From: Mediterranea sp. (in: CFB group bacteria)
GTDB lineage: Bacteria; Bacteroidota; Bacteroidia; Bacteroidales; Bacteroidaceae
NCBI GenBank assembly: GCA_031258135.1
Contig: JAIRNG010000158.1
Coordinates: 1 to 32,491 of the forward strand
Reading direction: 5' to 3'
Length of the DNA: 32,491 bases
Positions 13,965 through 31,386 of this stretch are shown one piece after another (the first letter of the stretch is position 1; each line of letters opens with the position of its first letter). The position numbers and the translations under genes are program-made. The notes beneath the pieces were generated by a model. The model ran no database searches, was not told the DNA's origin, and saw only the letters and a program-made list of their open reading frames with translations.

Positions 13965-15263
13965 ATGAATTTTGTAGAAGAACTAAGATGGAGGGGCATG
14001 GTTCATGACATGACGCCCGGAACAGAGGAACTGTTACAGAAAGGAATGACTTCCGCTTACGTAGGTATCGATCCTACAGCCGATTCCCTGCATATCGGCC
14101 ACCTGGTAAGCGTGATGATGCTGAAGCTTTTTCAGCGTGCAGGACATCGCCCCATTGCCCTGATCGGCGGAGCCACCGGTATGATCGGCGACCCTTCGAT
14201 GAAGTCGGCCGAACGTAACCTGCTGGACGAGGCGACCCTCCGTCACAACCAGGAAAGTATCAGGAAGCAGCTGGCGAAGTTCCTGGATTTCGATTCGGAT
14301 GCTCCTAACGCCGCCAGGCTGGTGAACAACTACGACTGGATGAAGGACTATTCGTTCCTGGATTTTATCCGTGACATCGGGAAGCATCTGACCGTCAATT
14401 ATATGATGGCGAAAGACTCGGTGAAGAAGCGTCTCAGTGGCGAGGCAAGTACGGGATTGTCTTTTACGGAGTTCTCTTATCAGCTTCTGCAGGGATATGA
14501 CTATCTGTATCTGTACCGGAATGAAGGGGTGCGTTTGCAGATGGGCGGTTCCGACCAATGGGGCAATATTACCACCGGTACGGAGCTGATCCGCCGTAAG
14601 CTGGGTAGCGGGGCGGAGGCATACGCCCTTGTATGTCCGTTGATCACGAAGGCCGACGGCGGCAAGTTCGGCAAGACGGAATCGGGCAATGTGTGGTTGG
14701 ACCGCCGTTATACTTCCCCTTATAAATTCTATCAGTTCTGGTTGAACGTGAGCGATGCGGATGCGGCTAAATATATCCGTATATTCACAGCCCTGGGTCA
14801 GGAAGAGGTTAAGGCGCTTGAAGAAGAACAGGCCGCCGCCGCCCACCTGCGTCCGTTGCAGAAAAGGCTGGCGAAAGAGATTACGGTCATGGTGCATGGC
14901 GTGGAGGATTATGAGGCCGCCGTGGAAGCATCCGGCATCCTTTTCGGTCATGCAACTTCCGAAGCGCTGAAGAGGCTGGATGAAGATACCCTGCTTGCCG
15001 TGTTCGAGGGCGTTCCCCGGTTTGAAGTATCAAAAGAGGCTCTGGCCGCAGGAGTGAAAGCCGCCGACCTGTTTGTGGAACATGCCGCCGTATTCCCATC
15101 CAAAGGCGAGATGCGCAAGCTCGTCCTGGGAGGGGGGGTATCGATAAACAAAGAAAAGCTGGAAACGCCCGACCGCGTGATCACGGCCGCCGGCTTGCTT
15201 AACGGTAAATACCTGCTGGTACAGCGGGGTAAGAAGAACTATTATCTGGTTATCGCCACGTAA
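13965..15263 (+). CDS. tyrS: Tyrosyl-tRNA synthetase TyrS
   Basis: Class I aminoacyl-tRNA synthetase charging tRNA-Tyr. 432 aa. The HIGH motif is HIGH at 43-46 ([11 protein letters not shown]), [12 protein letters not shown] and [11 protein letters not shown] precede or follow it, and the KMSKS-equivalent loop is KFGKT at 234-238 ([17 protein letters not shown]). The [10 protein letters not shown] motif is intact. An S4-like RNA-binding domain occupies the last ~65 residues ([13 protein letters not shown] to YYLVIAT). The start at 13965 ([12 protein letters not shown]) is chosen from family alignment and promoter position. Confidence 0.97.
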
Positions 15264-15278
15264 AAAACAGGCGGAAGA

Positions 15279-15310
15279 TTTGGACGCAAGGATGAGTATC
15301 CTTATCTTTG
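15279..15310 (+). promoter_or_regulatory. Promoter for tRNA-Gln
   Basis: TTTG at 15279-15282, a 20-bp spacer, and TATCTTTG at 15303-15310: a textbook Bacteroidetes -33/-7 promoter, about 30 bp before the tRNA. Confidence 0.75.
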
Positions 15311-15340
15311 CACCGCTTTCGGCGAAAAGCGTCACGCATT

Positions 15341-15411
15341 TGTCCTATGGTGTAATGGTAGCACATCTGATTTTGGTTCAGACAGTCTAAGTTCGAATCT
15401 TGGTAGGACAA
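15341..15411 (+). tRNA. tRNA-Gln (anticodon TTG)
   Basis: Complete cloverleaf: acceptor TGTCCTA pairs with TAGGACA (15404-15410), D-arm with AATGGTAG loop, anticodon stem TCTGA/TCAGA with loop TTTTGGT giving anticodon TTG, and a T-arm with loop TTCGAAT. No CCA is encoded. It is the last host gene before the prophage, and its 3' end is the likely phage attachment site, with the reconstituted gene left intact. Confidence 0.93.
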
Positions 15412-15444
15412 CAAATATGACTGATAATCAGTTGTTTACAAAAT

Positions 15445-17328: not shown

Positions 17329-20300
17329 TTAAGTCAAAGGATACCCCCAATCCGGCGCGAAAATGATAAAATTGCAGCTTCCGTCGTACATATCAGTGTA
17401 GCCACTTATGTATATAGTAAATGAATTCGTCGATTGCGAATAGAGAGTGCATTTGTTGGGTGTACTACCATTATATATAGCCCCGTATCCCGTAAGCATA
17501 ACGAAGAATCCGGAGGGTATTACACCGCTTGTCCACGATACTACGTACATGCCTTTTCCTGATCTGCTTACAGAAAATACCCCAGATGTTCGCCCGTCCC
17601 AAAAATTATATGAAATAGATGCGCCGGAAGATGTACCGGTCACCCGACCCGTTGCCATTATTCTTGGGAATCTTCCCTTTGCTGTACCTTTTCTGAAATC
17701 ATCCTGTCCAAATCGACCTGTGATAACCCATTTACCAGCATTCGGATATGATGAATACAAAGTTGGCGGGAGTTGAAAACAGGAAACTTCTAATACTTCT
17801 TGCGGGTGAATAACCGCATCTACATACGGTTCAATCGTTGTATCGGTAGTAGTTCCGTCGGCGGTTCTTCCAAACGTGTACAATCTTACCGTATAATCGT
17901 AGCTACCATACGCATTGCTGTTAAATAGTCTGCATACTTTTCCGATATCTTCTTCTTCATATCCCATCGTTATGGTTTTATTCGCTGTGGATTTTGGAAG
18001 ATAGAATATATTAACGTCAGAGAAATTACCGGAGTATCCGGTAGATAATTGTATAGTCCCGTTCAGCCTTACAGTGCCAGCGTTCCCGTTCATATACACG
18101 TTTCCGGACTGGGATTCCAACCGTCCATTCCTGAATACCCATCCTGCAATATTAGCATTTTCGGCTAAAAGTAGATTGGTTGCCACACTATCGAATTGTG
18201 CTCCAAACGTATTCCAATTGCTCGTATTTGTCGGTATTATACCAGTAAAGCCGTTACCGGCATCCACGCGGGCAACATAGTAGGTATCGTTATACTTGAC
18301 AACATCTACACGTTGGGGCGTTCCGTAGTAAGTTTCAGAACTGTTATACAATCCACGAAAGACAATTCCCGGCCCCGCATCACCTTTTGCACCGGTATCT
18401 CCCTTATCTCCCTTATCTCCCGTGTTGCCTTTGTCACCTTTTGCACCGGTATCTCCAATAACGCCACTTGTCCGGACGGGAGTACTCCAATTTTGGAGTA
18501 ATGTGCCTGTGGCGCTTTTTTTTGCAACCGTCATCCACAGATATTCCAATACTCCGATGCTTGGCATTGATGTTGTCCAACCGGATGGGATTGCTGATGT
18601 TACCGTAATGGCTGGAGGTGATGTAGTCGAACCGTTTTTTGCATACCGGTATTCAAAGTATGCGCCGTCCGTACCGTCTTGACCATTAGAACCATTCTGT
18701 CCGTTTGTACCATCCGTCCCCTTAGCGGCTATTACAGCCCAATACGCTGTATTTGTCGGCAATTGTCCTGATTGGGTATTATTGATATACCGGTATGTAG
18801 AACCGTTATATGTCACCTCATCACCTTTGTAATAGGCATAAGAACTGTTGTATGCTCCTCTGAAACATCCTAAAGGCTGCTCGTCCCCTGATTGCGATTG
18901 CACCAAAGTACCTTTCAACCTTAGTTTACCGTCCCCTTGTGTGTTGAATTCTAATGCAATGTTGCTGTTGCCGACACGGAAAGCATTATTCAAGAAATCG
19001 AGGAAATTTTGTCCGTCAGACGAAATCACTTTGTCGGTTGTCATACGTCCCGGTAATATTTCTGTGTATCCATACAAGGAAACATACGAGCGTTCGCTAT
19101 TGTATTCGCTGTTAAGCACACCCATAAGCAGGTGATAATAACCCGCAACACTCTCCATAGCAATAGCGGTTTCACTGATATAAAACACGCCTGTATTCGC
19201 TGTCTTGCTTACCTTTGCATACAAGTAGTATTTCTTTTCTGCCTCTGTCAATACGGGAGTGTTAAACTCGGGGAGTGTCCAAAATTTGTATTCACTGACA
19301 GCATGGCTCGATGATAGGGTGTTTATCCCAAGCGTGAGATGCTGTAATATACCGGCTGTGGATGTGAGTATTTTCGTTTCCGCATTATAGGTTACGTTGT
19401 GGGCTACTTCTATCGGGTTGGTAGCATTGTTCACGAACCGGAATTGCAAGTTCTCATCACCCACAAGCATAGCCATTGTTTGAATGGCTATCGGACTTAT
19501 AGAATTGGTGAACTTGTCAAGCAGTGCAGCTTCAAGCATACCGATTGTTTCCTGCGAATCACGGAAACGCCTTTTGGTGAATTGAATGGAATCTCTATGA
19601 AAGTCATCAACGATAACCTCGTTCGTTTCTATCTTGCGTAAATCGCTTGAAATTGAACTGCCAACAACTTCATTCGATAATTCTATCTGGGGGCTGTGTG
19701 GATTGTTGATATAATCCTTTATTCCGACAATACGGATAATAACCCCGTCCGGTTGGAATTGATTATCCGAAAACAGAACGTAGCCGCCGAGCTTGATTTT
19801 CCCGCCAATATTCAACCAGTCCTTTTTTGCCCATATCCCGTCCAACTCTCCGGTAAATGTGAATTTTTGTTCTTCGTTTTCATACAGAAACTTCACCGCC
19901 TCGCGGAACATATCCCAACTTGCCCCTGTTTTTGTCGCGTTATCACAAATGTAAGTATCAGGCAGCATCATATTGAACACAGCATATTTTCCACCGACAA
20001 CCGGTACAAATACGTTATCCGGCATTGTTCGCCCGTCTATCTCCTGCGGAACGATTTCAAAACGACGGTCGTTGTGGCTGTATTTCACCTCAAACTCCTT
20101 TCCCATCAACATACCATCCTGAAAAATGACAGTCATTTTTTCTCCAGAAATCAAGCAGTCTTCAAAGTTGAGATTTGCCGGTATGGAGCTGTCGATTATA
20201 TCATAGAAATGCTTTTCAGCATCCACAACATTTACCGCGTTGATTGTACCGACACGGGACGGATATATATGCGATAAATCGAGGCTGTCCTCGTTTTGCG

Positions 20301-21111
20301 AGTCCAACGGCTTGTCTGATCGCCGGAATGAGAAACCGTCTGCATCCGTTACATACAATCTCGCTTTGGCGGCATCATATCCCTCTTGGTCGGAAAAATA
20401 TTGTCCGTCATAGCCGATTGTTTGATTTTGAGGCAATAACAATTCCGTACTGCCATACTTGCTGGCATCAATATTCCGTTCGCCGCCCTGCACGAATAGG
20501 ATTTCAATTGGTTTTTTATTATCGTTGCTTCTCCCGATACCGGTTTTAAACCCGTTACCACGCCCGTATGAGAGTGGTAACGGATTATTCTTGTTATACT
20601 CAACTTTGCAAAGATTGATAGTCTTACCTAAGATTTCCCACTCTGTTTCAAACGCCTCTGCTATTTGGCTCAAAGCATCGCTGCAAAATGCGTGATTGTA
20701 GGATATTACTTTATCAACCATATCAATGCAAGTTCCAACCGCCCATCCCGTTTCACGCTGATTTAAGTTGTCAACCAACATCTGCAAGTGTTCGCTCGGC
20801 TTCGCCGTTAATGAAAACTTAAGGCGTCGTGAAGTTGCATCCTTGAACTTGTATTTTGACAGTTTCGCTTGCGCCGAATCCATAATGAGTGTATACTCAA
20901 AATTTCGGGTATTGTGCTTTTTGAAATTTTCGGGCTTTTCAAGCGTGTATCTTTCACCCTCAAAATCGCAATAAGCCCCAAGAGGTATCTCGATATGCTG
21001 AGTGAGTGAGTAATAAAGTGTTAAACTGTGTTCACCCTTTATCGCCCTGTACCGGTAACTGTTATCGTTTACAGGTAGTTCAAGTTCCGTATTATTGAAA
21101 TGTATAATCAT
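17329..21111 (-). CDS. 1260 aa tail hub / fibre protein with CBM-like and collagen-like segments
   Basis: The N-terminal ~500 residues (MIIHFNNTELELPVND onward; YALEK-type and FTFTGELDGIWAKKDWLNIGG segments) resemble the baseplate hub or tail-associated proteins of Bacteroidetes siphoviruses. The middle contains two modules with a carbohydrate-binding CBM5/12-like pattern (YYKGDEVTYNGSTYRYINN, about 752-796; VDVVKYNDTYYVARVDAG, about 921-970, each ending in a W). Two Gly-X-Y collagen-like tracts sit next to them, about 798-816 and 886-915. The C terminus is Gly/Ser/Tyr-rich and beta-rich. Such a protein would trimerise and contact the host surface. It overlaps the upstream 103 aa gene by 4 nt and precedes the holin. 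Fold assignments are from pattern only. Confidence 0.75.
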   Translation of the reverse strand: MIIHFNNTELELPVNDNSYRYRAIKGEHSLTLYYSLTQHIEIPLGAYCDFEGERYTLEKPENFKKHNTRNFEYTLIMDSAQAKLSKYKFKDATSRRLKFSLTAKPSEHLQMLVDNLNQRETGWAVGTCIDMVDKVISYNHAFCSDALSQIAEAFETEWEILGKTINLCKVEYNKNNPLPLSYGRGNGFKTGIGRSNDNKKPIEILFVQGGERNIDASKYGSTELLLPQNQTIGYDGQYFSDQEGYDAAKARLYVTDADGFSFRRSDKPLDSQNEDSLDLSHIYPSRVGTINAVNVVDAEKHFYDIIDSSIPANLNFEDCLISGEKMTVIFQDGMLMGKEFEVKYSHNDRRFEIVPQEIDGRTMPDNVFVPVVGGKYAVFNMMLPDTYICDNATKTGASWDMFREAVKFLYENEEQKFTFTGELDGIWAKKDWLNIGGKIKLGGYVLFSDNQFQPDGVIIRIVGIKDYINNPHSPQIELSNEVVGSSISSDLRKIETNEVIVDDFHRDSIQFTKRRFRDSQETIGMLEAALLDKFTNSISPIAIQTMAMLVGDENLQFRFVNNATNPIEVAHNVTYNAETKILTSTAGILQHLTLGINTLSSSHAVSEYKFWTLPEFNTPVLTEAEKKYYLYAKVSKTANTGVFYISETAIAMESVAGYYHLLMGVLNSEYNSERSYVSLYGYTEILPGRMTTDKVISSDGQNFLDFLNNAFRVGNSNIALEFNTQGDGKLRLKGTLVQSQSGDEQPLGCFRGAYNSSYAYYKGDEVTYNGSTYRYINNTQSGQLPTNTAYWAVIAAKGTDGTNGQNGSNGQDGTDGAYFEYRYAKNGSTTSPPAITVTSAIPSGWTTSMPSIGVLEYLWMTVAKKSATGTLLQNWSTPVRTSGVIGDTGAKGDKGNTGDKGDKGDTGAKGDAGPGIVFRGLYNSSETYYGTPQRVDVVKYNDTYYVARVDAGNGFTGIIPTNTSNWNTFGAQFDSVATNLLLAENANIAGWVFRNGRLESQSGNVYMNGNAGTVRLNGTIQLSTGYSGNFSDVNIFYLPKSTANKTITMGYEEEDIGKVCRLFNSNAYGSYDYTVRLYTFGRTADGTTTDTTIEPYVDAVIHPQEVLEVSCFQLPPTLYSSYPNAGKWVITGRFGQDDFRKGTAKGRFPRIMATGRVTGTSSGASISYNFWDGRTSGVFSVSRSGKGMYVVSWTSGVIPSGFFVMLTGYGAIYNGSTPNKCTLYSQSTNSFTIYISGYTDMYDGSCNFIIFAPDWGYPLT

Positions 21112-21419
21112 GTGAATTGGAATATCTTACCGTTTCCGCATTTTGTTGCTTTTATAATCGTTGTGAACGGGAAATCTTCTTTTGAAATCTGGTCGAGAGC
21201 GTTCTTTATATTCGTGGAATTGGAAAAGAATTTACCTTCCGCCCCCTCTTGCTTGTAATGGATAAGGTAACGCCCGTCACCGTGTTTTGTCTTTATATTC
21301 GGGACGTAATCCAGAACCTCAATTTCACAGTTCACGACATCCGTTATAGAAACCTGTTGGCAGTTGAATAATTTTCTTTCATCCTCCTGCTTCACGCCGA
21401 GTTCGCTAAACTTTTTCAT
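21108..21419 (-). CDS. Hypothetical phage protein, 103 aa
   Basis: Not recognised. MKKFSELGVKQEDERKLFNC opens a soluble, mixed-charge protein with two Cys near the N terminus and one near the end (KATKCGNGKIFQF); no membrane segment. It lies between a 119 aa tail-module protein and the 1260 aa hub, overlapping the latter by 4 nt, so it is translated with it and may be an assembly factor or a small tail-tip component. The KHGDGRYLIHYKQEGAEGKFF stretch looks like a beta-hairpin rich region. Any role is inference. Confidence 0.65.
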   Translation of the reverse strand: MKKFSELGVKQEDERKLFNCQQVSITDVVNCEIEVLDYVPNIKTKHGDGRYLIHYKQEGAEGKFFSNSTNIKNALDQISKEDFPFTTIIKATKCGNGKIFQFT

Positions 21420-21428
21420 ATTGCGTTG

Positions 21429-21788
21429 TTATATTACAAATTCAGCATAATCCTGCTCGACCTGCAATTTCACATCTTTCCGAGCAGTAAGGAAGTCCGT
21501 ATAACGTTGAATATACCGCACATCTAAAACACCCTCTTTGGCTGCATTATAATCATTAATCAGCTTCGCCTCATAGTCGCTTGACCAAAGCGAAGCCAAA
21601 ACAGCCTCCATTAGCTTCTCGCGTGTAACAGTAGCCCAAACAACTACTTCGTTGCACTCCCATTGCGTTCTTTGTTCACCGTCATCTATACCGGTAGAAG
21701 TTTGCATCTCTCTAATGTTCCAACGATAGGTAAAAGAACCGTCACCGTTTGCCTCATAAACAGAGGGCTTAGAATCGTAAATTGCCAT
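21429..21788 (-). CDS. Hypothetical tail-module protein downstream of the DGR reverse transcriptase, 119 aa
   Basis: Soluble, no membrane segment. The N-terminal half (YEANGDGSFTYRWNIREM) looks beta-rich and the C-terminal half helical (REKLMEAVLASLWSSDYEAK, VRYIQRYTDFLTARKDVKLQ). This arrangement resembles the small proteins that follow tail fibre genes in other tailed phages, possibly a chaperone or fibre-associated factor. Its start overlaps the end of the reverse transcriptase gene by 20 nt in another frame, so the two are translationally coupled. It was considered as the missing DGR accessory protein Avd, but the sequence lacks the short all-helical character of that family. Confidence 0.65.
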   Translation of the reverse strand: MAIYDSKPSVYEANGDGSFTYRWNIREMQTSTGIDDGEQRTQWECNEVVVWATVTREKLMEAVLASLWSSDYEAKLINDYNAAKEGVLDVRYIQRYTDFLTARKDVKLQVEQDYAEFVI

Positions 21789-22773
21789 AATATTCGTTTT
21801 TAATTATTGTTTTTAATAAATGTCTTGAATTACTGTATTTAGCCCAGCCGAGCCAACTGCTTATCCGTTGTTTGTATTCGTTATCTGTTACATTTTCACG
21901 TTTATTCAGTTTAGCCACAGCGCGGCAAAAATTCTTTTTTATGCCTTTCCGCATCTTGGTATGTGTGTGATAGAACACGAATCCAACAAAGTCTATCCCG
22001 CGAGCGACAACAGGGAAAACCTGATAGTTCTCTTTTAGCGATAAATTAAGCTCCATATTCAGATAGTCATTGATGAGAACTAACAAACCGTGCAGGAACG
22101 TTTTATCACGGTGTAGAAAAACCATATCATCGGCATAACGGAAATAGTATTTGATACCCACATTCTCCTTTATCCAATGGTCAAAATAGGTCAAATATAA
22201 ATTGGCAAAGTACTGAGATAGATAGTTTCCTATCGGGACGCCGGGGGTGCTGTCGATAACTTGGTTGAGTAACCAAAGCGTATCGGGGCATTTGATTTTC
22301 CGGAGGATAATCTGTTTCAATATATCATGGTCGATACTTGGATAAAACTTGCGTATGTCTATTTTTAAGCAATACCGCGTGTTTTCAATATCTTCCAACG
22401 CAAGTTTCACTTTTCTCATCGCACCGTGAATACCCCGTTTTTTAATACATGAAAAACTATCAGCCGTGAATACCGACACCCATATCGGTTCAAGTATATT
22501 CATAACGGCGTGGTGTACTATCCTATCCGGGAAATACGGCAGCCGGAAAATCTCACGTTCTTTCGGTTCGTATATCTTGAAAATGTGATATCCCGAAGTA
22601 CGGAAAGTTCTATTTTTCAACATTTCATGCAGTTTCAAAATATTCGCTTCCCTATTTTTATCGTGAGCTTTCACGCCATAAGATTTTAACTTCCCCCGTC
22701 TCGCTTTTTCGTCAGCAAGCCGGAGGTTGTCAATGTCAATTATCTTTTCGTATAAATTACCTACTCTTTTCAT
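21769..22773 (-). CDS. DGR reverse transcriptase
   Basis: RNA-dependent DNA polymerase that copies the template-repeat RNA with adenine-directed errors. With the start at 22773 it is 334 aa, the usual DGR-RT size, and begins MKRVGNLYEKI, which matches the conserved N terminus of DGR RTs; an in-frame ATG at 22821 would add 16 non-conserved residues. Motif A is KIDIRKFYPSID (137-148, catalytic D139), the catalytic YADD is at 213-216. The motif IGNYLSQ (181-187) is the DGR-type SQ form, in place of the QGxxxSP of retron and group II intron enzymes. There is no maturase, thumb-X or endonuclease domain. It lies 118 bp after the template repeat on the same strand and overlaps the next gene by 20 nt. 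Confidence 0.95.
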   Translation of the reverse strand: MKRVGNLYEKIIDIDNLRLADEKARRGKLKSYGVKAHDKNREANILKLHEMLKNRTFRTSGYHIFKIYEPKEREIFRLPYFPDRIVHHAVMNILEPIWVSVFTADSFSCIKKRGIHGAMRKVKLALEDIENTRYCLKIDIRKFYPSIDHDILKQIILRKIKCPDTLWLLNQVIDSTPGVPIGNYLSQYFANLYLTYFDHWIKENVGIKYYFRYADDMVFLHRDKTFLHGLLVLINDYLNMELNLSLKENYQVFPVVARGIDFVGFVFYHTHTKMRKGIKKNFCRAVAKLNKRENVTDNEYKQRISSWLGWAKYSNSRHLLKTIIKNEYYGNLRF

Positions 22774-22891
22774 ACTTTGCTTTTCACTATAAGAATCTTC
22801 GGTTTCCCTACCAATACCCATTTGAGGTTGTCATTTTTTGTCAAGAGACAAGGTCGTTACTCCTTTTATTTTGTTCTTTACTTTTGAAAAC

Positions 22892-23003
22892 CATAGGTGG
22901 GAGCTGATATTCGTGTTCGTAGCCGAGGGGGTGTTATTCGAATTAGCGTAACTGAAACCTGCATTCGCCCTGTTATTCGCATCGCCGCCGAACAGCACAC
23001 CAC
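22892..23003 (-). repeat. DGR template repeat (TR)
   Basis: About 112 bp that align without gaps, at an offset of exactly 171 bp, to the 3' end of the variable gene (VR, 23063-23174). In the 108-bp core (22896-23003) there are 27 adenines on the coding strand; 18 differ in the VR and no non-adenine position differs. The TR is rich in AAT/AAC codons, which cannot mutate at A to a stop codon. It lies between the variable gene and the RT and should be transcribed as the template RNA. An intact 66-codon frame runs through it in the same frame as the VR. Confidence 0.95.
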
Positions 23004-23040
23004 AAGAGTAACCAACCTTTTTATTCATCATCCTTTCGCG

Positions 23041-24474
23041 TTACGCTCCCGCTGGGATAAAGCAAAGGCGGGAGCCGATATACGCGTTCGCAGCCGAGGG
23101 GGCGTTATTCGAAGCAGCGCAACCGAAACCCGCAGACGCCCCGAGATCCGCAGCGCCGCCGAACAGCACACCACGCAAAGAACCTGATGTTATATAGGTG
23201 TAATGATAGTCGCACCAATAAGTTGTAGAACCGCCTCCTACTAATGCAGGAATAATATCGCCGAACTCACCAAATACCATTTCTTTGGTGTAACCATCTG
23301 TCCGTGCTTCCAATCCTCTCATTTCGTAGTTTCCGTATCCGTTATCCACATAGTCAGCCGGATTGTTGGCAACATAAACCTTGCTTGTACCCCCGTCGGC
23401 ATCTGTTTTCACTTCTATATTTATTCCGTCCGTCCATTTCCACACGTTTCCGAATGGGTTTTCAATGCCCCTGTAACGATTGGCATAGACTGTAACGATT
23501 GTACTTTCGTCACCGTTTATATCAACATCATAGGCAACCTCACCCGAAGCGTTACCGATAGAATCTGTATGTCCGCAAGGCACAAAAGGATAATATCCGT
23601 TCAATGTGTTCCATTGTGCGCTTGTAAGCGTTGTTACACCGTTCCCAAGTCCGCCTTGCTTGTAACCGTTTGCATCCGGCTGTGCATTGAAAGCTGTTTG
23701 TGAGTTAAGGTTTGCATATTCAATGTAATAGAGCCATGCAATATCTTTGTAAGCGTTGTAATCGTTGCAGTTCCATGATGTCCCTGCTCCGCGCAAACGG
23801 GCTGCGGTTCTGAATTGTGTACGACTTTTTACGGTTGTCGGGCGACCGAGTAACGAACGATAGGTATTGTCCCAATCCGCTTGGTTGTTTCCTCCGCGAA
23901 AATCCGTTCCTGGGTTTACAAGCGAGCATAATTTGCCTGTGCTGCGTTCAAATGTGGCTTCATATGCTGATATATACTTCTTTGCCACTGCATGGTATCC
24001 GGGTAAAGGAAGCTCGCTGATTTTAATCCGGCGTTTTGTTCCGTCCGTTTCAAACTTTCGGAAATGAGCCGGTATTTCAACCATAACCTGTCCACGTGCT
24101 CCGCTCCTGTCATGCGCAATCCAATTGGTTGGGTTCAAATATTCGACGACCGTTCCCGCATCACTTAACAGGCAACCCCTCATGCGGTTCTGAATAGGCA
24201 AACTCTTGTGAAAAGCCAAATTTCCGATACGTGTGCAAACCGGTGAAGATACAGCCGTATCAAATTCAACGCCGTATGCACATTGTTCCTCAATATAGGG
24301 GAGTAAAGCCGCTAATCTTGCTTGTTTACTTTCCCCGTCCGTGTCCAAAACCTCAACTATTAAATCAAGTGGGTTTCCCGCTCCGATGTTTGGGAGCTCA
24401 TTCAACCGCTTTCCGTTTTGAAATGCAGTGATAATTTGAAGCACTATCGCTTCCTGTTCTGTTGTTAAAGCCAT
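23041..24474 (-). CDS. DGR variable protein: phage tail adhesin with C-type-lectin/FGE-like domain
   Basis: 477 residues. The N-terminal ~80 residues are helical and look like a tail-attachment region. The C-terminal part carries the formylglycine-generating-enzyme/C-type-lectin-like pattern: ENPFGNVWKWTDGINI (338-353), a long loop region, then RGVLFGG (434-440) and an IGSRLCF end (466-472), equivalent to the family's G-F-R-C/L-V strand. The VR covers residues 434-472, where DGR target proteins present their variable ligand-binding face. Being in the tail module, between fibre genes and the hub, it is most likely the receptor-binding tip, as with Mtd of Bordetella phage BPP-1 (established precedent). 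It starts 8 bp after a small basic protein gene. Receptor unknown. Confidence 0.9.
   Translation of the reverse strand: MALTTEQEAIVLQIITAFQNGKRLNELPNIGAGNPLDLIVEVLDTDGESKQARLAALLPYIEEQCAYGVEFDTAVSSPVCTRIGNLAFHKSLPIQNRMRGCLLSDAGTVVEYLNPTNWIAHDRSGARGQVMVEIPAHFRKFETDGTKRRIKISELPLPGYHAVAKKYISAYEATFERSTGKLCSLVNPGTDFRGGNNQADWDNTYRSLLGRPTTVKSRTQFRTAARLRGAGTSWNCNDYNAYKDIAWLYYIEYANLNSQTAFNAQPDANGYKQGGLGNGVTTLTSAQWNTLNGYYPFVPCGHTDSIGNASGEVAYDVDINGDESTIVTVYANRYRGIENPFGNVWKWTDGINIEVKTDADGGTSKVYVANNPADYVDNGYGNYEMRGLEARTDGYTKEMVFGEFGDIIPALVGGGSTTYWCDYHYTYITSGSLRGVLFGGAADLGASAGFGCAASNNAPSAANAYIGSRLCFIPAGA
23045..23075 (-). other. GC-rich hairpin at the VR 3' end (possible IMH-associated structure)
   Basis: GCTCCCGC (23045-23052) and GCGGGAGC (23068-23075) form a perfect 8-bp stem with a 15-nt loop. 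On the coding strand the first arm lies in the VR and the second just before the stop codon. In phage BPP-1 a short GC-rich hairpin next to the VR is needed for efficient retrohoming; this could be its counterpart, though one base pair (23069) sits on a variable position. Confidence 0.45.
23063..23174 (-). repeat. DGR variable repeat (VR)
   Basis: The diversified 3' end of the 477 aa gene, codons about 434-472. Against the TR, template A became G at 11, C at 4 and T at 3 core sites, changing 14 amino acids (residues 441, 443, 444, 445, 447, 451, 452, 454, 458, 462, 464, 465, 467, 469). One further A-to-T change occurs at 23065 (silent), and the first non-adenine mismatch at 23062 marks the 3' boundary. 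Confidence 0.95.
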
Positions 24475-24482
24475 AATGATAA

Positions 24483-24638
24483 TTATTTCTTGTTTGTAAA
24501 TCTTATTGCTATTGCACCGTTTATCCGCAGTATTCTCATTGATGTCTGCGTTGTTAAACGAATAGTTTTTTGCTTCCGTAATCTTTCAGCAAAACGTTTT
24601 ATTCGTTTTTGAATACCTGTGACTATTGATATAATCAT
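24483..24638 (-). CDS. Small basic protein upstream of the DGR variable gene, 51 aa
   Basis: Starts MIISIVTGIQKRIKRF and contains about 13 Lys/Arg residues in 51; it is probably one or two amphipathic helices followed by a short beta segment (MRILRINGAIAIRF). Its ATG overlaps the stop of the 105 aa gene (ATGA), the usual coupling in this operon, and it ends 8 bp before the variable gene. It was considered as a DGR accessory factor because it is basic and adjacent, but it is much shorter than Avd and no family is recognised. An earlier in-frame start at 24668 is less likely because it lies within the preceding gene. Confidence 0.55.
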   Translation of the reverse strand: MIISIVTGIQKRIKRFAERLRKQKTIRLTTQTSMRILRINGAIAIRFTNKK

Positions 24639-24952
24639 ACGCTTTCTACATAAGAGCCACTGCCCCAATAAATATCGTTCTGTTCCAATATATCGCCGTT
24701 TGGAGCGATATCAACAATAGCCATAGGCGACCAATCGTTTAATACAATAGGGGCTTCACCGCTTTCATCGTCCTGATAGCATTTCACATTCAACACCACA
24801 TCAATATCAGAACTCGCAAACTTCGGTCTGATGTATATCGAAAAGGGAGCTCTTCCGGGCAACGAAAACCCATTCGATAAGTCTGTTATCTTCCCATGTG
24901 AAACGATACGACCACCCGCCATAAATTCGCTGATATAACCTTTCTGTGCCAT
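24635..24952 (-). CDS. Hypothetical tail-module protein, 105 aa
   Basis: Starts MAQKGYISEFMAGGRIVSHG; beta-rich, with FSIYIRPKFASSDIDVVLNV and DWSPMAIVDIAPNGDILEQN segments and no membrane helix. The size and the GRAPFSIYIRP/NDIYWGSGSYVESV patterns suggest a small beta-sandwich structural protein of the tail tip or a fibre collar. It lies between the coiled-coil fibre-like protein and the DGR variable gene. No family name can be assigned. Confidence 0.65.
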   Translation of the reverse strand: MAQKGYISEFMAGGRIVSHGKITDLSNGFSLPGRAPFSIYIRPKFASSDIDVVLNVKCYQDDESGEAPIVLNDWSPMAIVDIAPNGDILEQNDIYWGSGSYVESV

Positions 24953-24963
24953 AAATTATATTA

Positions 24964-25647
24964 TTAAGTTAGACGTAAATTCCCATTTCCTACAAAGCGC
25001 AGAGAGTTTGATGTAATCTTGCGCAATGCCGGTTCTATAACCATTATTTCTATTGTTTTATAGATATTCGTATTCTCGGTTGGTATCACGAAAATCCGGC
25101 TTATACCCGGCTTTTTCACAACGAAACTTCCGTCCGGCGTGACTGTCACAGCGTTGTCATCACCGAGAAACAGCACATTCCGCCCTGTATTTGCCGGTAA
25201 CAGGGTATAAGTTATCCGCATTGTTTCTGTGTTCCGAAACGTAATTATTTGCGGATATTCCAACTCTATTCCGGTTGGAATTAGCTTATATTGCCCGACA
25301 AGAGATTCCGCCAATTCTTGCATTATAATGATTGTGTCGTTTGCTTCCGTTACCTTTTGGTTGGCAAGTGCCGCCGCCTCATTCGCCTCTGTTGCCTTAT
25401 CGTTTGCCAACCCCGCTTTTGTATTGGCGTTTGTAGCTGCATTATTCGCCGATACTGTGGCTTGGTTTGCGCTGTTTGCCGCCTGTGATGCTGCCGTTGT
25501 TGCTGTGTTTGCATTATCGGCAGCCGTTTTCAGGAATTGCAGCCCAACCTTGACACTCCTGTTCAGACTGTCAACCCCGATAGTGAATAACCCGACGAGT
25601 GATTCAGCTAAAGGAAGTGCGCTTATCTTCTTTTTCTTAATCCCCAT
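24964..25647 (-). CDS. Tail fibre-like protein with Ala/Asn-rich coiled coil, 227 aa
   Basis: Residues about 40-110 are a regular Ala/Asn/Thr-rich heptad region (NTATTAASQAANSANQAT, NAATNANTKAGLANDKATEA), typical of the trimeric coiled coils of phage tail fibres. The C-terminal half (GRNVLFLGDDNAVTVTPDGS, VVKKPGISRIFVIPTENTNI) looks like a small Ig-like beta domain. The short N-terminal MGIKKKKISALPLAESLVGL is a common fibre/baseplate start in Bacteroidetes phages. It overlaps the upstream distal-tail gene by 11 nt. It may carry or anchor the variable adhesin; this is inference from order. Confidence 0.7.
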   Translation of the reverse strand: MGIKKKKISALPLAESLVGLFTIGVDSLNRSVKVGLQFLKTAADNANTATTAASQAANSANQATVSANNAATNANTKAGLANDKATEANEAAALANQKVTEANDTIIIMQELAESLVGQYKLIPTGIELEYPQIITFRNTETMRITYTLLPANTGRNVLFLGDDNAVTVTPDGSFVVKKPGISRIFVIPTENTNIYKTIEIMVIEPALRKITSNSLRFVGNGNLRLT

Positions 25648-26563
25648 ATACTGATAGATTTATTGAGTAATCATCCTGTTCGGTTGTAATTAATTCGTCA
25701 TCTTCCGTAGCCAAAAGAAATTCCTCACCTTCAACCCGGAACGAGGTAAATACCAGCACGAGCGTGAACCGAAACCATATTTTTCCGATTGGCGAGAACT
25801 CCAACACGGAGCAACTCTTGTAATAGCAGGGGTATTCGTAGCCAATGGCGTCAACGTACAAAAGCCTTTCATCAGGGCGGGTGAGGTCGTACAGCAGGGC
25901 ATTGTAATTACGCCAAAATTCCTCCAATGTATTCGCTCTCATCAGGCAATTCAACTTAACCTCTTTTGCCTGAAATGCTACATTTTCGCCGTCGTAAATT
26001 GCTCCGCTTTGGCTCTTTATGTTTTGCAAAAGGTTCTTTTTGACAGCCGGTGATTTTTCTATCTCCGTGTCGCTCCCTTGCAGAACAGTAACCCCATATT
26101 CGGACAAGTCGCGTTCATCAAGCTCATATCCGCGCTGCGGAATAATGCTTGATTGTGGAGCAACATATTCATAATCTGGCAAAGGGAAATCATCGGCGAA
26201 ACGCAAAGATAAAGTTCCGACCGTTGATACTTGTGCCATTCCCGACTGTGTAACGAGGCGTAGGCTGTACGTCTTACCTATTTCAATGAAATTAAAATCA
26301 TGATACGCCCCATCAGAAAGCAACTCAATAAAAGCTCCGAAACGGGAATCATCGCCGTGAAATGAGAAATTTACAGACAGTTCACGGGTATCAAGCACGG
26401 GAGTGGACAAGTCAAACTCCTCGCCGTCTTCCTCCGCCCAATTGTTGCTTTCAACGGTTTTGAGCGATGGAAAAGCTACTAACTCTTTATACCCGTCTTT
26501 TGCAACAAAAACATGATATAAAGCGTATGTATCCTGTCCGTCTATGTAGAGTTTCCCTGTCAT
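25637..26563 (-). CDS. Probable distal tail protein (Dit-like), 308 aa
   Basis: The order tape measure - small protein - this gene - fibre matches the place of the distal tail protein in siphoviruses. The sequence is beta-rich with MTGKLYIDGQDTYALYHVFV at the N terminus, LSVNFSFHGDDSRFGAFIEL, a central TLEEFWRNYNALLYDLTRPD segment, and FRFTLVLVFTSFRV near the C terminus. That arrangement (two similar tail-tube-like beta domains, each with an FxxFxxxLxxG/YDLTxP-type segment) is seen in tube-capping proteins. It overlaps the upstream gene by 4 nt. The call is based on position and style, not a recognised family. Confidence 0.55.
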   Translation of the reverse strand: MTGKLYIDGQDTYALYHVFVAKDGYKELVAFPSLKTVESNNWAEEDGEEFDLSTPVLDTRELSVNFSFHGDDSRFGAFIELLSDGAYHDFNFIEIGKTYSLRLVTQSGMAQVSTVGTLSLRFADDFPLPDYEYVAPQSSIIPQRGYELDERDLSEYGVTVLQGSDTEIEKSPAVKKNLLQNIKSQSGAIYDGENVAFQAKEVKLNCLMRANTLEEFWRNYNALLYDLTRPDERLLYVDAIGYEYPCYYKSCSVLEFSPIGKIWFRFTLVLVFTSFRVEGEEFLLATEDDELITTEQDDYSINLSVYGD

Positions 26564-26989: not shown

Positions 26990-29900
26990 CTACCTCTTTA
27001 TGATTATGCCTTTCAGGGCAATATCGTTCATTGTATTCTTGATAGACTGAATGTCTTTCTCAATGCTTTCAAGCCGGGAAATGCCTTTCGTATTTTCCTC
27101 AATGCCGGAAAGGAGTATAAGTATTGTCCCGGTGTTTGTAACCAATATTTTCATATTCTCAGTCAATGAGTAGGTATGTCCCTGAATTGCTGTCAGTCGT
27201 CCATTATTCTCATCCACGCTCTCCTGGCTTGCGGTTGCAATACCTTTCTTTGAACCCTCGCGCCCATCTGCTTCTTTATCCTTGACATACTTATCAAGGC
27301 TATCATCCAACCCGTTCAACTTGTTGTCTATCGCATTCTCCAAAGCATCAAGCGTGTTTTGCTCGGCAATGGTCAAAATTCCGTCTTCCATTGCTGTGGC
27401 AAGGTAATCCATAAAAGCGGTAACCTCCGGTGAGAGGCGGGATTTTACTAACTCTGCTACGGCTGATTTTACCATTTTTCGAACCACTTCTTTTATGGAA
27501 GTCGCTTTCTCCTCTCCGGCAGCCCAAGCATCTATATAAGCCTCCGCAAACTCATCGATTGCCGAAGAAATATCCTGCCCGATAATGGCTTCTACAATCT
27601 TATCATGTGTGCGTTCAAGCTCATCATCAATCTCTTTTATAGCATCTTTGTACTGCTGAACCTTATTTTTGTCGGTTTTCTTTTTGTCCTCTTCGAGGCG
27701 TATTTGTTCCTCTAAAAGTTTCTTTTGTCGGCGGAGGTTGGCATCCTGCTGTTCGATAAGGTTGGCGGCATTTGTCGAATATGCTTTATCAATGGCTTTA
27801 CCGAGCTTGTCATAAGCCGCTCGCAAGGTATCGACCTGTTTTTGCAAACGTTGTATCTCTTTCTCCTTTTTCTTATCGCCGGAAAATATGTTCGTTATAA
27901 GGTTGGCGATAGCCATAGCTATTTGAAGAGCCGCCGAGATAATAGCAAGGATAACAGAGGCTTTTTCAACCCCTTTAATCGCCTCGGCGGCTGTGGTTGC
28001 CGTCATCGTGGTGGCGGTTGCAGAACCGACCGCAAGGGTGTTTATCCCAATAATCATATTGATAACACCGGTAGCGATATTCATGGCGGCATCGAGAACG
28101 GCTTTCGTGGCATCATCAAGCCCCTCGAAACTGTTCGCAATGTCATTGGTAAGCGATTTAACGTCCTGCATGACAGAGAGCGTATCTTTCCACTTTTTGG
28201 AGGGGTCGCTTGTCTTTACCTCTTTCGTGTCGTCCTTAACGGCGGTAAGCTCGTTAATCCGGGCAGTAAGGGTTTTAACTTGGGCTTTTAATTGATTGAC
28301 CTTAGCTTTGTCCCCTTCGCCGGAAGCTATCTCGGCATCCAAAGCATCTTTTGCTTTGTCAAGAGCTTCAAGAAGTTGTTCCAAGCCCATTCCTACCATA
28401 CCCTCAACAAAAGTGATAAAAGTTTGCTCCTTAATTTCCATTTCTTCATCAAGCCCGGCGAGTATTTCAGCCTGCATAGCTTTGACACTTTCAATTGTCT
28501 CGGTTGTCGCTCCCTGCTTTTCGAGGTTCTTTATATTGTCGTTAAATTCCTTAACTTTATCAAGGTATTTTTGTGCAAATCTGGCATATTCATTAAGGGC
28601 TTCCTCATAGGCCTTTTGGTTATTAGCGGTAAATTTCGCCTCTACTCCGGTCTCAAGAACCTTGAGCTGCTCGTTATCTTCGTCTGACGACTGCGTTGTT
28701 TTGGGCGAGAACTTCATTCCCTTTTTCTCCCAATCGGGGTTTTCACTCTCCCAAATAGTTCGTTCCCACGCTTGAATTTTAGCGAGTTTATCCAGATCTT
28801 GCCGTTTGATTTGCTCCATTTCTTTGTCGAAATTGAGCTTGTTTTGGGCGAGAATTTTACCCAAGCCCTCATCCGAAGCATCGATGCGAGCCTGCCGGAC
28901 AGCAAACTCCATATCTTTGTAGAAACGTATCTTTTCCTGCTCTTCCTGTTTTAATTGGTCGGTGTAGTCTTTTGACTTGTTTTTAGCGGAGGTACTTCTT
29001 GCAGAAACAAAACCGCCGATACTGTACTCCTTTCTGAGGTTGGCGTATTCCTCCTGCAGTTTCCTAGCTTCATCCAAATAAGCGTCCCGCTGCTCCTCGG
29101 CGGCTTTTACGGCTGCATCCTTGGCATTCCTGTTATACTCTTCGATCTCCCGGCGAGCATCTATCCGGCCGATATCCATGGCTTGAGCGGTATAAAGCCC
29201 CATTCTGGCAAACCATCCCATAGCGCCCTCCACATCATCGGGGGCCGCGGCTTCGGTCAGGTTCGCTTTTTCGTCCGCTTCTACGGCCTTGTTCACCAGG
29301 CTCTGCGCCTTCGCCTGCAGGAATAGCATCTGAATATAGGCATCGCTTTTTTGAATCAGGACATCATACCACTGGCTGGCGGTGTCATAATACCCGAAGC
29401 TCTCGCCGTACTTCCGGTTCAACTGCTCAACCATCTCCTTTTCCTGCTCCTTGCTGCCGGTAAAGTCTTTCAGGCTTTTGACGGTATGCTCTATCTCAAA
29501 ACGGGTTTTAACCATCTGGGCGCGCCCGTCGCTCTCGGTTTCCACCCGTTCCCTGGCTTTTTTTGCCGCTTCCTGCTGCGCGTCGCTGTATTTGTTCCAC
29601 AGGATGACAAGCCCGGCCACGACGGCCGAAAGCCCCAGCGTAAGGGTGGCCATCAACGCGGTAGCTGCCGCATTGGAGATACCCAGCGACACGGCCAGCC
29701 TCGTGTTCGCGGCAGTGAGCAGGTTCTTTGCCTTTGTAACTGTCGCTGTACGGAATGCGCTTGTTTGCAGCATAGTTGATGACACTGCCTGCAATCCGAT
29801 AGTGATAGCCATAACCGATTGTAGTTTTGCCTGAACTTTTGCCAAATTCTCATTTTGACCCGAAAACAAACCCATGACACCGGTTGCGGCTGAAAATGCA

Positions 29901-30580
29901 CCGGATAGTCCTGAAAGTCCACTCATGACGCCCGCAAATTGCACTTGTGGATTGACGAGTGTTTTTTGCGCTTCCCCCACATTTTTATAGGCTATTCCGA
30001 GCTTTTGAAGTTGTGCCTCTAATTCCTTATATCTTTCGTTCTCTTTGTAATTTGTTCCATTTTCCAGAGATGTTTTAACAATTTGCATCATCTCTTGCTT
30101 GATATGCCGTAACTGTGTTATGAACGTCTGTTGTTTTTGATCGCTATTACTAATTTCATTTGTCACTTTTTTGTATGCAGATTCAAGCTGATTTAGCGCT
30201 TGTTTTTCGCGGTTAAGTTCGGTGGATGTCTCCTGTAACAGAGTCATCGCTTTCATTCGCTGCTCAATAAATGCAGAATCCTGATTAACTGGAACTTTCG
30301 TGTTATAGAATGCAGCATTTAACTTTCTATATTGTTCTTCTAGCTTTGAAATAGCTGCTCTTTGTGACGCAATAGCTTCTTCAAGTTGATTTTTTGAGGT
30401 TATTCCATATTTAGATACCCCTTCAAAGGCTTTTTTATAGGCATTATCTATCCTTGCCCCCTCCGCAACGGAAGAGTCTCCGATACCCCTGATAATAGCC
30501 ATTGATTGTTTCGCATCTTCTTGGAGTTGCTTATTATCAAGCCCTAAGCCATAATATGTTTTACCATCCTGGTTATCCAT
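26990..30580 (-). CDS. Tail tape measure protein, 1196 aa
   Basis: By far the longest helical protein of the module, immediately after the chaperone frame, as expected. Long coiled-coil regions (about 60-200, 340-520, 570-800 and 902-1010) flank a hydrophobic segment at about 303-328 (AAATALMATLTLGLSAVVAGLVILW, split here: AAATALMATLTLGLSA then VVAGLVILW) and a longer Ala/Ile-rich stretch at about 832-901. Such hydrophobic parts are thought to act in DNA entry. At a typical 0.15 nm per residue the tail would be about 180 nm. Its ATG overlaps the preceding stop (TAATG). A stretch around 29050-29760 is clearly richer in G+C than the rest, which suggests mosaic exchange within the gene. Confidence 0.92.
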   Translation of the reverse strand: MDNQDGKTYYGLGLDNKQLQEDAKQSMAIIRGIGDSSVAEGARIDNAYKKAFEGVSKYGITSKNQLEEAIASQRAAISKLEEQYRKLNAAFYNTKVPVNQDSAFIEQRMKAMTLLQETSTELNREKQALNQLESAYKKVTNEISNSDQKQQTFITQLRHIKQEMMQIVKTSLENGTNYKENERYKELEAQLQKLGIAYKNVGEAQKTLVNPQVQFAGVMSGLSGLSGAFSAATGVMGLFSGQNENLAKVQAKLQSVMAITIGLQAVSSTMLQTSAFRTATVTKAKNLLTAANTRLAVSLGISNAAATALMATLTLGLSAVVAGLVILWNKYSDAQQEAAKKARERVETESDGRAQMVKTRFEIEHTVKSLKDFTGSKEQEKEMVEQLNRKYGESFGYYDTASQWYDVLIQKSDAYIQMLFLQAKAQSLVNKAVEADEKANLTEAAAPDDVEGAMGWFARMGLYTAQAMDIGRIDARREIEEYNRNAKDAAVKAAEEQRDAYLDEARKLQEEYANLRKEYSIGGFVSARSTSAKNKSKDYTDQLKQEEQEKIRFYKDMEFAVRQARIDASDEGLGKILAQNKLNFDKEMEQIKRQDLDKLAKIQAWERTIWESENPDWEKKGMKFSPKTTQSSDEDNEQLKVLETGVEAKFTANNQKAYEEALNEYARFAQKYLDKVKEFNDNIKNLEKQGATTETIESVKAMQAEILAGLDEEMEIKEQTFITFVEGMVGMGLEQLLEALDKAKDALDAEIASGEGDKAKVNQLKAQVKTLTARINELTAVKDDTKEVKTSDPSKKWKDTLSVMQDVKSLTNDIANSFEGLDDATKAVLDAAMNIATGVINMIIGINTLAVGSATATTMTATTAAEAIKGVEKASVILAIISAALQIAMAIANLITNIFSGDKKKEKEIQRLQKQVDTLRAAYDKLGKAIDKAYSTNAANLIEQQDANLRRQKKLLEEQIRLEEDKKKTDKNKVQQYKDAIKEIDDELERTHDKIVEAIIGQDISSAIDEFAEAYIDAWAAGEEKATSIKEVVRKMVKSAVAELVKSRLSPEVTAFMDYLATAMEDGILTIAEQNTLDALENAIDNKLNGLDDSLDKYVKDKEADGREGSKKGIATASQESVDENNGRLTAIQGHTYSLTENMKILVTNTGTILILLSGIEENTKGISRLESIEKDIQSIKNTMNDIALKGIIIKR

Positions 30581-31289: not shown

Positions 31290-31313
31290 GCTGAAAATAA
31301 TTAATCGTTATTG

Positions 31314-31386
31314 ATGCGGATACCGGACTTGAACCGGTGACCTCTTGGAAATGAGCCAAGCGAGCTACCAACTGCTCCAATCCGCT
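31314..31386 (-). tRNA. Phage tRNA(CAT), initiator-like
   Basis: Cloverleaf on the minus strand: acceptor AGCGGAT pairs with ATCCGCA except for an A1-A72 mismatch; D-stem GAGC/GCTC with loop AGTTGGTA; anticodon stem CTTGG/CCAAG with loop CTCATTT (anticodon CAT); T-stem ACCGG/CCGGT with loop TTCAAGT. The unpaired 1-72 and the A11-U24 pair are initiator-tRNA hallmarks, but only two of the three G-C anticodon-stem pairs are present, and U37/U38 are unusual. No CCA encoded. It lies between the tail-tube and chaperone genes. Confidence 0.85.

Follow-up and report, generated by a model that had tools for sequence, protein, structure and literature searches.

An avd-less diversity-generating retroelement in a Mediterranea prophage: a helix enclosing the template repeat and a small protein family linked to the reverse transcriptase

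The question raised by the locus described here is how a diversity-generating retroelement (DGR) without a linked avd gene presents its template to the reverse transcriptase (RT), and which protein might serve the RT as a partner. The locus lies on a contig of Mediterranea sp. (JAIRNG010000158.1, assembly GCA_031258135.1), of which a stretch of 32,491 nucleotides was analyzed (the window). It is encoded on the minus strand, in the order target gene (24474-23041), template repeat (TR, 23003-22892), and RT frame (22821-21769), and the variable repeat (VR) lies at the 3′ end of the target gene. The locus is very probably a complete avd-less DGR in which three RNA helices (P1-P3) would present the TR, the RT would stop at P1, a small protein of the family phrog_19665 would act as its partner, and a tail protein of predicted lectin fold would be diversified. 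That the locus is a DGR, as had been proposed from the nucleotide sequence without database searches (the sequence-only reading), is borne out by the TR/VR pattern, the RT, and the predicted fold of the target.

Adenine-specific repeats, reverse transcriptase, and target protein

The TR (22892-23003) contains 28 adenines. The VR (23063-23174, codons 435-470 of the target gene) was assigned from its alignment to the TR and from codon entropy in relatives. Realignment reproduced the gapless match previously reported at these positions, which extends over 112 nt of the minus strand at an offset of 171 nt. All 19 mismatches are located at adenines of the TR (11 A>G, 4 A>C, and 4 A>T), and the probability that every one of them would land by chance on the 28 adenines among the 112 positions is 4.9e-15. 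The sequence-only reading had given 18 of 18 differences on 27 adenines in 108 nt (11, 4, and 3, respectively), which is the same alignment after trimming. Sixteen codons differ between the TR and the VR; 14 of the changes are nonsynonymous and those at codons 448 and 470 are silent, in agreement with the 14 residue changes noted earlier, where two sites were described as silent or near the boundary. A pair of repeats that differs essentially at TR adenines only, as expected for a DGR, is present in the window.

The base preference was also analyzed in 185 loci around relatives, some of which overlap on one contig. Runs of at least 55 nt with at least 5 mismatches confined to one base of one copy were found for A in 148 loci, for T in 6, for G in 5, and for C in 0. 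The metagenome-assembled genome to which the window belongs (81.8% complete) contains a single TR and a single VR, with no further copy. Seven related loci have one TR for at least two VRs on the same contig, while the window has a single VR. The TR of the window reads GCT at codon 461, a hypervariable position of the family (entropy 3.42), and seems to have lost a diversifiable codon there.

An open reading frame (ORF) of 66 aa (22831-23031) runs through the TR in the frame of the VR and matches a tail family. It resembles this family because the TR copies the VR. In one related locus (L003) a difference of two nucleotides in the spacing between the P1 arm and the homologous TR codons breaks the frame, and the interpretation of the TR as a small protein was rejected.

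The RT is 334 aa in length from its likely start (21769-22773) in a frame that is open to 22821. It matches the phage RT family phrog_1423 with an E value of 3.6e-127. The best match among solved structures is 8ub7_A (328 aa, E 2.4e-45), with group II and retron-type RTs at 1.3e-14 and weaker, and the protein is 34% identical to Brt of phage BPP-1 over 328 aa. By its family, structure, and Brt matches, an RT of the DGR kind adjoins the TR. The stretches IGNYLSQ and YADD were both located in the RT frame, as the sequence-only reading had stated; the SQ motif is specific to DGR RTs. Matches of the RT to PADLOC models (RT, E 1.5e-38; RT_UG17, 1.6e-26) would fit a defense-associated or group II-like enzyme next to which the repeat pair is incidental. 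However, the PADLOC matches are general, the match to the phage RT family is at 3.6e-127, the best solved structure is matched far better than group II enzymes, and adenine-only repeats occur in 148 of the 185 loci. An RT of this other kind is scarcely conceivable.

The start of the RT is likelier to be at 22773 than at the ATG at 22821. It is favored because 4 of 21 aligned elements retain the ATG at 22821, because 70 of the 86 loci with an ATG-AAR start behind the TR (among 95 dereplicated loci) have no in-frame ATG upstream, and because the match to the Rfam RT-17 RNA spans 22855-22773. The match starts obtained with tblastn for the 350-aa reading in 80 loci (residue 13-17 in 38, residue 2-12 in 40, and later in 2) leave the choice of start unsettled. 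RTs that are 54-68% identical to that of the window were also found on contigs labeled Clostridia, Helicobacteraceae, Lachnospiraceae, and Thauera, which are possibly misbinned.

The target gene (23041-24474) encodes a 477-aa tail protein with the VR at its 3′ end. For 82 proteins, the mean entropy is 2.10 bits at the 18 TR-adenine codons, 0.69 at the other VR codons, and 1.24 for residues 55-429, with the silent codons 448 and 470 excluded from the comparison. No Pfam match to the target was obtained even at an E value of 10, and no PDB sequence matched. A first AlphaFold2 model (43 sequences, pLDDT 65.8) gave no useful fold match. A second model, for which 82 sequences were used, gave a useful match, and a C-type lectin fold was predicted. 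By this model the target is a tail protein of C-type lectin fold, and its variable residues would be displayed on that fold, as on the C-type lectin or immunoglobulin-like folds of DGR targets. The protein may serve in receptor binding; the position at the tail tip and the switch of host receptor that the sequence-only reading proposed by analogy with BPP-1 are conjectural.

The 3′ end of the VR (23054-23081, GSRLCFIP) is a candidate initiation of mutagenic homing (IMH) site, and codons 467-470 are nearly monomorphic in relatives. It differs from the 3′ end of the TR at positions that are fixed in relatives, an observation by which IMH, constraint, and context-biased copying are indistinguishable. 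An inverted repeat at the VR end (23045-23075) has perfect 8-bp arms (23045-23052 and 23068-23075) and a 15-nt loop. Stems of at least 7 bp are present at the VR end in 4 of 35 loci versus 2.9% of shuffles, and the inverted repeat is a weak candidate for a conserved DGR element. Perfect hairpins of 6-9 bp with loops of 3-4 nt, similar to the hairpin of BPP-1, are found near the VR end in five loci, a minority of the relatives.

The sequence-only reading had suggested a search of relatives for the same TR with differing VRs, and such variation was found at TR-adenine sites with a constant TR. Loci L113 and L114 have 0 differences over 1392 aligned bases outside the VR and 0 over the 116-nt TR; in their VRs, 15 of the 29 TR-adenine sites and none of the 87 remaining sites differ. 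The VRs differ at 13 of 28 TR-adenine sites in the pair L004/L110 (0 of 1035 outside) and at 14 of 29 in the pair L045/L119 (0 of 1043 outside). These comparisons belong to a set of 16 selected pairs, taken mostly from a list of A-only runs; the counts outside the VR and in the TR are unbiased, and the counts of non-A changes in the VR are partly bound by the selection. One non-A change in the VR was found in each of the pairs L040/L041 and L037/L038. The pair L024/L110 has 439 of 981 differences outside the VR, reflecting unlike contig ends, and L058/L072, L058/L125, and L160/L164 are among the more diverged pairs. A tally of VR-VR differences at identical TRs (901 of 901 at A) was set aside as circular because the runs had been picked free of non-A mismatches.

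To judge from these alignments, close relatives diversify their VRs, and the copy in the window would be active as well. Activity of this copy is inferred from its relatives, and no second VR allele of this strain is found in its own genome, which weighs against that interpretation. Together with the truncation of the prophage by the contig end at 32491, this would be compatible with a real DGR that has become a relic, with differences of old date in a prophage that has ceased to diversify. A relic is quite improbable, as the RT has an open frame that includes the catalytic stretch, the TR, P1-P3, and the target frame are intact, and close relatives diversify.

Not all of the TR/VR differences are free diversification. 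In the 35 dereplicated loci with a long TR/VR run, the VR has G in 57 of 58 cases at the TR adenines of codons 445, 448, 451, and 467, for which the next base in the window is G. These cases include the silent position of codon 448, with G in 19 of 20; codon 469 has G in 27 of 27, and codon 470 has T in 25 of 28. Among 135 TR/VR pairs of relatives, A before G is changed to G in 340 of 366 cases and never to C, A before C is changed to C in merely 17 of 864, and a silent third-position GCA before G is changed to G in 23 of 24. The differences in the last codons may be fixed IMH differences. Codons 445-451 sit among hypervariable codons, and context-biased copying or constraint is therefore needed there; because codon 448 is silent, protein constraint cannot account for its G. 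This adenine context effect agrees in kind with the error profile of BPP-1, which the accessible portion of PMC12875486 reports to be dominated by the base 3′ of the adenine.

RNA helices around the template repeat

The P1 helix encloses the TR. Its 5′ arm is located at 23004-23017, with the TR/VR homology starting at the next base, and its 3′ arm is in the spacer at 22852-22864. P1 consists of 4 bp, one unpaired base, and 9 bp. The P2 hairpin (22838-22851) has GTC/GAC in the window versus GCC/GGC in most aligned relatives. The P3 stem (22791-22819) contains a U-U mismatch and an inner hairpin, and its outermost pair is unformed in 10 of 21 elements. P2 is enlarged by hairpin-like inserts in nine relatives and thus tolerates expansion.

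RNAalifold was applied to 21 aligned elements and recovered P1 unprompted, followed by P2 and P3. In these elements, 96.5% of the cells of the 23 named pairs are paired versus 34-53% for slid versions of the structure. Two-sided changes are found at 17 of the 23 pairs compared with 8.2 in shuffles (0 of 500 reach this value), and the covariation score is 0.420 compared with 0.194 for shuffles and at most 0.143 for slid versions. The weakest measure is the number of further pair types, 31 versus 26.4 in shuffles (6 of 500). The structure that was counted had been drafted from the window sequence and is for this reason favored over the slid versions.

The P1 arms were compared with swapped arms in 76 of the 95 dereplicated loci using anchored 14-nt arms. 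Own arms pair at -13.2 kcal/mol versus -7.4 kcal/mol for swapped arms, and the lowest of 10,000 permutations is -8.6. One locus with a short arm and 18 loci without both anchors were left out; the window is among the latter because its P2 reads GTC. With a helix finder that requires a GG start and at least 10 bp, P1 was found in 68 of the 95 loci, and swapped arms gave a mean of 15.4 and a maximum of 23. P1 is present in 29 of the 35 loci with a TR/VR run of at least 105 nt, and its gap to the 5′ edge of the TR is -1 to 3 nt in 28 of these 29. Kinship inflates the helix counts, an effect that is covered in part by the slid and swapped controls. These comparisons of aligned loci demonstrate the covariation of the RNA and the register of P1 at the edge of the TR.

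The match to the Rfam RT-17 RNA (RF03020) is located between the TR and the RT (22773-22855; 39.1 bits, E 5e-6). RT-17 and the structure described here have the same position between TR and RT, and the stems of RT-17 are P2 and P3. They differ in that the RT-17 model spans the 3′ flank only, without the TR or any pairing across it. The gathering threshold of RT-17 is reached in 12 of 27 relatives scanned, 8 of 18 in one set and 4 of 9 in another, with scores of 48.8 bits for L109 and 43.9 bits for L003.

Several results weigh against the P1 model. P1 was not detected by the helix finder in 27 of the 95 loci. Folding of the single sequence gives no gain in stability over shuffles (z +1.43); P1 is absent from the minimum-energy structure, and P1-like pairs are present in the centroid. 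The first duplex test, in which long windows were used, gave no difference between own (-22.6) and swapped (-22.3) sequences. The RT-17 score of the window is below the gathering threshold of 40.4 bits. Among 14 further named phages, 13 of which have a detectable TR, the P1 arms are significant at p<0.05 (200 shuffles) in just 6 of 13, two being close relatives: crAss LMMB, crAss C0526, Bacteroides phage Versailles, Psychrobacillus phage Perkons, cr7_1, and cr60_1. The arms are nonsignificant in cr52_1 (0.144), cr55_1 (0.065), cr50_1, cr6_1, cr130_1, vir525, and BalMu-1, and in BPP-1 (p 0.27).

P1 could also be kept for processing or stability of the transcript or for control of RT translation, rather than for setting the end of the complementary DNA (cDNA). 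P2-P3, which correspond to RT-17, reach as far as the likely start codon of the RT and may therefore act in RT expression. Against this, control of translation would not call for a helix that surrounds the TR and, in 28 of 29 loci, directly adjoins its 5′ edge. We consider a role other than the cDNA stop doubtful but by no means remote.

The small protein family phrog_19665

The candidate accessory gene of the window (21108-21419) encodes a protein of 103 aa that matches phrog_19665, a family of unknown function, with an E value of 3e-46. Between the VR and the TR, 20 related loci have a gene that encodes about 110-130 aa and contains a DDGSL or near-identical motif. The five VR-TR genes that were scanned all belong to phrog_19665, and their profile matches the 103-aa protein of the window with an E value of 4.6e-14. 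In a profile search, phrog_19665 was found near the RT in 44 of the 95 dereplicated loci, always on the RT strand. The gene precedes the TR in 22 of these loci and follows the RT in the other 22, where it starts at or overlaps the RT end in 11, lies 246-396 nt behind it in 10 (344 nt in the window), and lies at 1172 nt in one. When loci were fetched by phrog_19665 itself, an RT was found 4-276 nt downstream on the same strand in 78 of 80 viral loci; the other two end 132 and 198 nt after the phrog_19665 gene. After dereplication the linkage to the RT is 43 of 44.

A phage collection contains 29 records with phrog_19665: 21 under an annotated reverse transcriptase, 2 unannotated, and 6 LoVEphage-like with an unnamed product. 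In hankyphage p00, a single protein of 435 aa contains the RT part (residues 2-323) and the phrog_19665 domain (residues 326-423). In LoVEphage the RT reads as three pieces, and the phrog_19665 domain is located behind the last piece in the same frame. In the LoVEphage record MW660583 (2787-4339) the RT-like pieces are in three separate ORFs. These gene arrangements demonstrate the association of phrog_19665 with the RT and its natural fusion to it. The phrog_19665 protein is probably a partner of the RT, taking the part that Avd plays in BPP-1.

By sequence, phrog_19665 is not a member of the Avd family (PF05635). Its profile aligned to BPP-1 Avd with an hhalign probability of 0.1% and an E value of 0.44, and the gene in the window has no Pfam match; a shared fold is possible. 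No credible Pfam or NCBIfam match was found for the family (best E about 0.09), and none was found among PDB sequences. No avd gene linked to the DGR was found: the single PF05635 match in the same genome is on another contig, and the neighbors in the window have no Pfam match. PF05635 is found in 0 of 9 related virus records, which are possibly fragments, and 4 of 6 bacterial genomes reached through the loci have matches somewhere in the genome.

Other results count against phrog_19665 as the RT partner. The family was not found in 51 of the 95 loci, 40 of which have at least 1.5 kb on both sides, nor was it found near the RT of the 14 named phages and BPP-1; it is thus not essential to all such DGRs. 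In the window the gene is one gene removed from the RT, the intervening gene (21429-21788, minus strand, 119 aa; phrog_11557, E 2e-35) being of unknown function. The search patterns on the family side came from the before-TR variant and favor that arrangement. These results, and the fact that the loci were fetched around the DGR RT, the target, or phrog_19665 itself, would be compatible with an ordinary phage gene that is merely syntenic with the tail region and unrelated to the DGR. However, the position of the gene relative to the RT varies between the two sides with strand and closeness kept, and the domain is fused to the RT in p00 and in frame behind its last piece in LoVEphage. Mere synteny is unlikely.

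Proposed mechanism, prophage setting, and known systems

In the proposed mechanism, a transcript across the TR and the spacer would fold such that P1, formed by the TR flanks, together with P2 and P3 presents the TR to the RT as a large loop. The RT would copy the TR toward its 5′ end, misreading adenines, and would halt at the foot of P1, which would set the 5′ limit of the TR. The cDNA would replace the VR and thereby change residues of the tail protein of predicted C-type lectin fold. The phrog_19665 protein would be the partner of the RT. Transcription, RT binding, the cDNA stop at P1, and the action of phrog_19665 are thus assigned conditionally, and the remaining steps would be those of the standard DGR cycle, which is established for BPP-1. 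According to the available part of PMC12875486, the position that corresponds to the proposed stop at the 5′ edge of the TR is determined in BPP-1 by a terminal motif of avd.

More generally, the avd-less DGRs of Bacteroidota may not be minimal. P1 would enclose the TR and stop the RT at the first base of the TR, fixing which codons can vary, and in about half of these elements phrog_19665, encoded next to the RT or as part of it, would replace Avd. This generalization is tentative and falls just short of an even call. The DGR itself is one more prophage element in a large known class. The covarying P1 provides a testable model of the template RNA for Avd-less DGRs and a rule for the 5′ border of the TR, and it also assigns RT-17 as the 3′ portion of the DGR RNA. 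For the accessory factor that is missing, phrog_19665, linked to the RT by neighborhood and natural fusion, offers a concrete candidate. This RT-linked protein and the RNA frame deserve further attention. No prior description of P1 or of the link between phrog_19665 and the RT was found in the open-license literature; key papers are outside it, and novelty is not firm.

The scanned genes at positions 1-15.3 kb look chromosomal, with queuosine, TruB, SAM synthetase, HemD, and tyrosyl-tRNA synthetase domains among them. A tRNA-Gln gene on the plus strand (15341-15412) was identified as the insertion site of the prophage. The similarity to genomes of the same genus passes through this gene, and the best matches to a 551-base query stop a few bases past it (15150-15416 covered). 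The similarity ends at query positions 267 in G424 and 266 in G408, both starting at 1, and two further matches extend to 280 and 283. From the tRNA-Gln gene to the contig end, each of the 16 larger minus-strand ORFs scanned has a PHROG match, or a match to a Pfam phage family in the case of the holin; a 61-aa ORF (24483-24668) has no family match in the same scans. The contig ends at 32491 inside the prophage, and the boundary on the tRNA-Gln side is the only one seen. Because of this edge and the phage matches from there to the contig end, the location of the DGR in a prophage tail operon, as claimed in the sequence-only reading, is confirmed.

The same operon encodes, on the minus strand, a tape measure protein (26990-30580; phrog_9959, E 1e-100) and a tail protein (25637-26563; phrog_6305, E 8e-109; phrog_33 Dit, E 9e-5). 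Downstream of the DGR is a minus-strand gene for a 1260-aa tail or fiber-like protein (17329-21111; phrog_15074, E 1e-282) with Prophage_tail and Collagen matches below the cutoff. Within the phage portion, a tRNA-Met gene (31313-31386) separates a BACON-domain gene from the tail operon. The prophage is inserted behind the tRNA-Gln gene (window 15341-15418), and in one genome of the same genus (G419) a 25-nt copy of the 3′ end of this tRNA recurs about 11.5 kb away, as if a second element shares the site.

The element shares with BPP-1 the related RT, a spacer between TR and RT, and a C-terminal VR in a tail protein of (here predicted) lectin fold. It differs in the order target-TR-RT without a linked avd, with about 60 nt between VR and TR where avd is located in BPP-1, and in a target without significant sequence similarity to Mtd (E 0.42). 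The P1-like arms are nonsignificant in BPP-1, and the small protein of the window is unlike Avd. The hairpin after the VR of BPP-1 is described in the accessible text of PMC3240598 as GC-rich with a 4-nt GRNA loop, which differs from the 8-bp arms and 15-nt loop found here. The Bacuni phages of Bacteroides uniformis are likewise siphophages of Bacteroidales with a DGR acting on a target of C-type lectin fold; they differ in carrying avd and two target genes (PMC8143477, available portion).

The layout of crAssphage LMMB, without avd, is assigned to DGR lineage 3 in the part of PMC7290462 that is available. The order target-TR-RT and the absence of avd from the cassette, by which that source describes this lineage, are both found in the window. 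The RT shows 48% similarity to that of LMMB, and its placement in the lineage 3 clade is putative. As in the DGRs of LMMB and other crAss-like phages (PMC7290462, same portion), the order is target-VR-TR-RT, avd is absent, and the target is a tail or collar fiber; among the matches listed, the RTs are 38-58% identical and the targets up to 50%. In contrast to the crAss-like elements, the DGR of the window belongs to an integrated prophage that also has genes for a tape measure and a Dit-like protein, and it has a phrog_19665 gene, which was not found near the RT in nine crAss-like loci examined. The VR of the window also keeps the SRLC residues, which genus I crAss VRs have lost according to the same portion of PMC7290462.

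Hankyphage p00 of Bacteroides is, by the accessible text of PMC6199706, a temperate Bacteroidales phage with a C-type lectin target; it has the same TR-RT order and a phrog_19665 domain, which in p00 forms the C-terminal part of the RT protein. In that text, it is a small ORF near the hankyphage RT that was named Avd-like by its size and charge. The loci in Candidatus Symbiothrix and in a Tannerellaceae metagenome-assembled genome have RTs that are 86% and 85% identical to that of the window, the same order, a P1 helix, and a phrog_19665 gene behind the RT, and differ in the sequences of the TR and VR. By these comparisons, the DGR of the window fits well among the DGRs of Bacteroidota phages that lack avd and act on lectin-fold targets.

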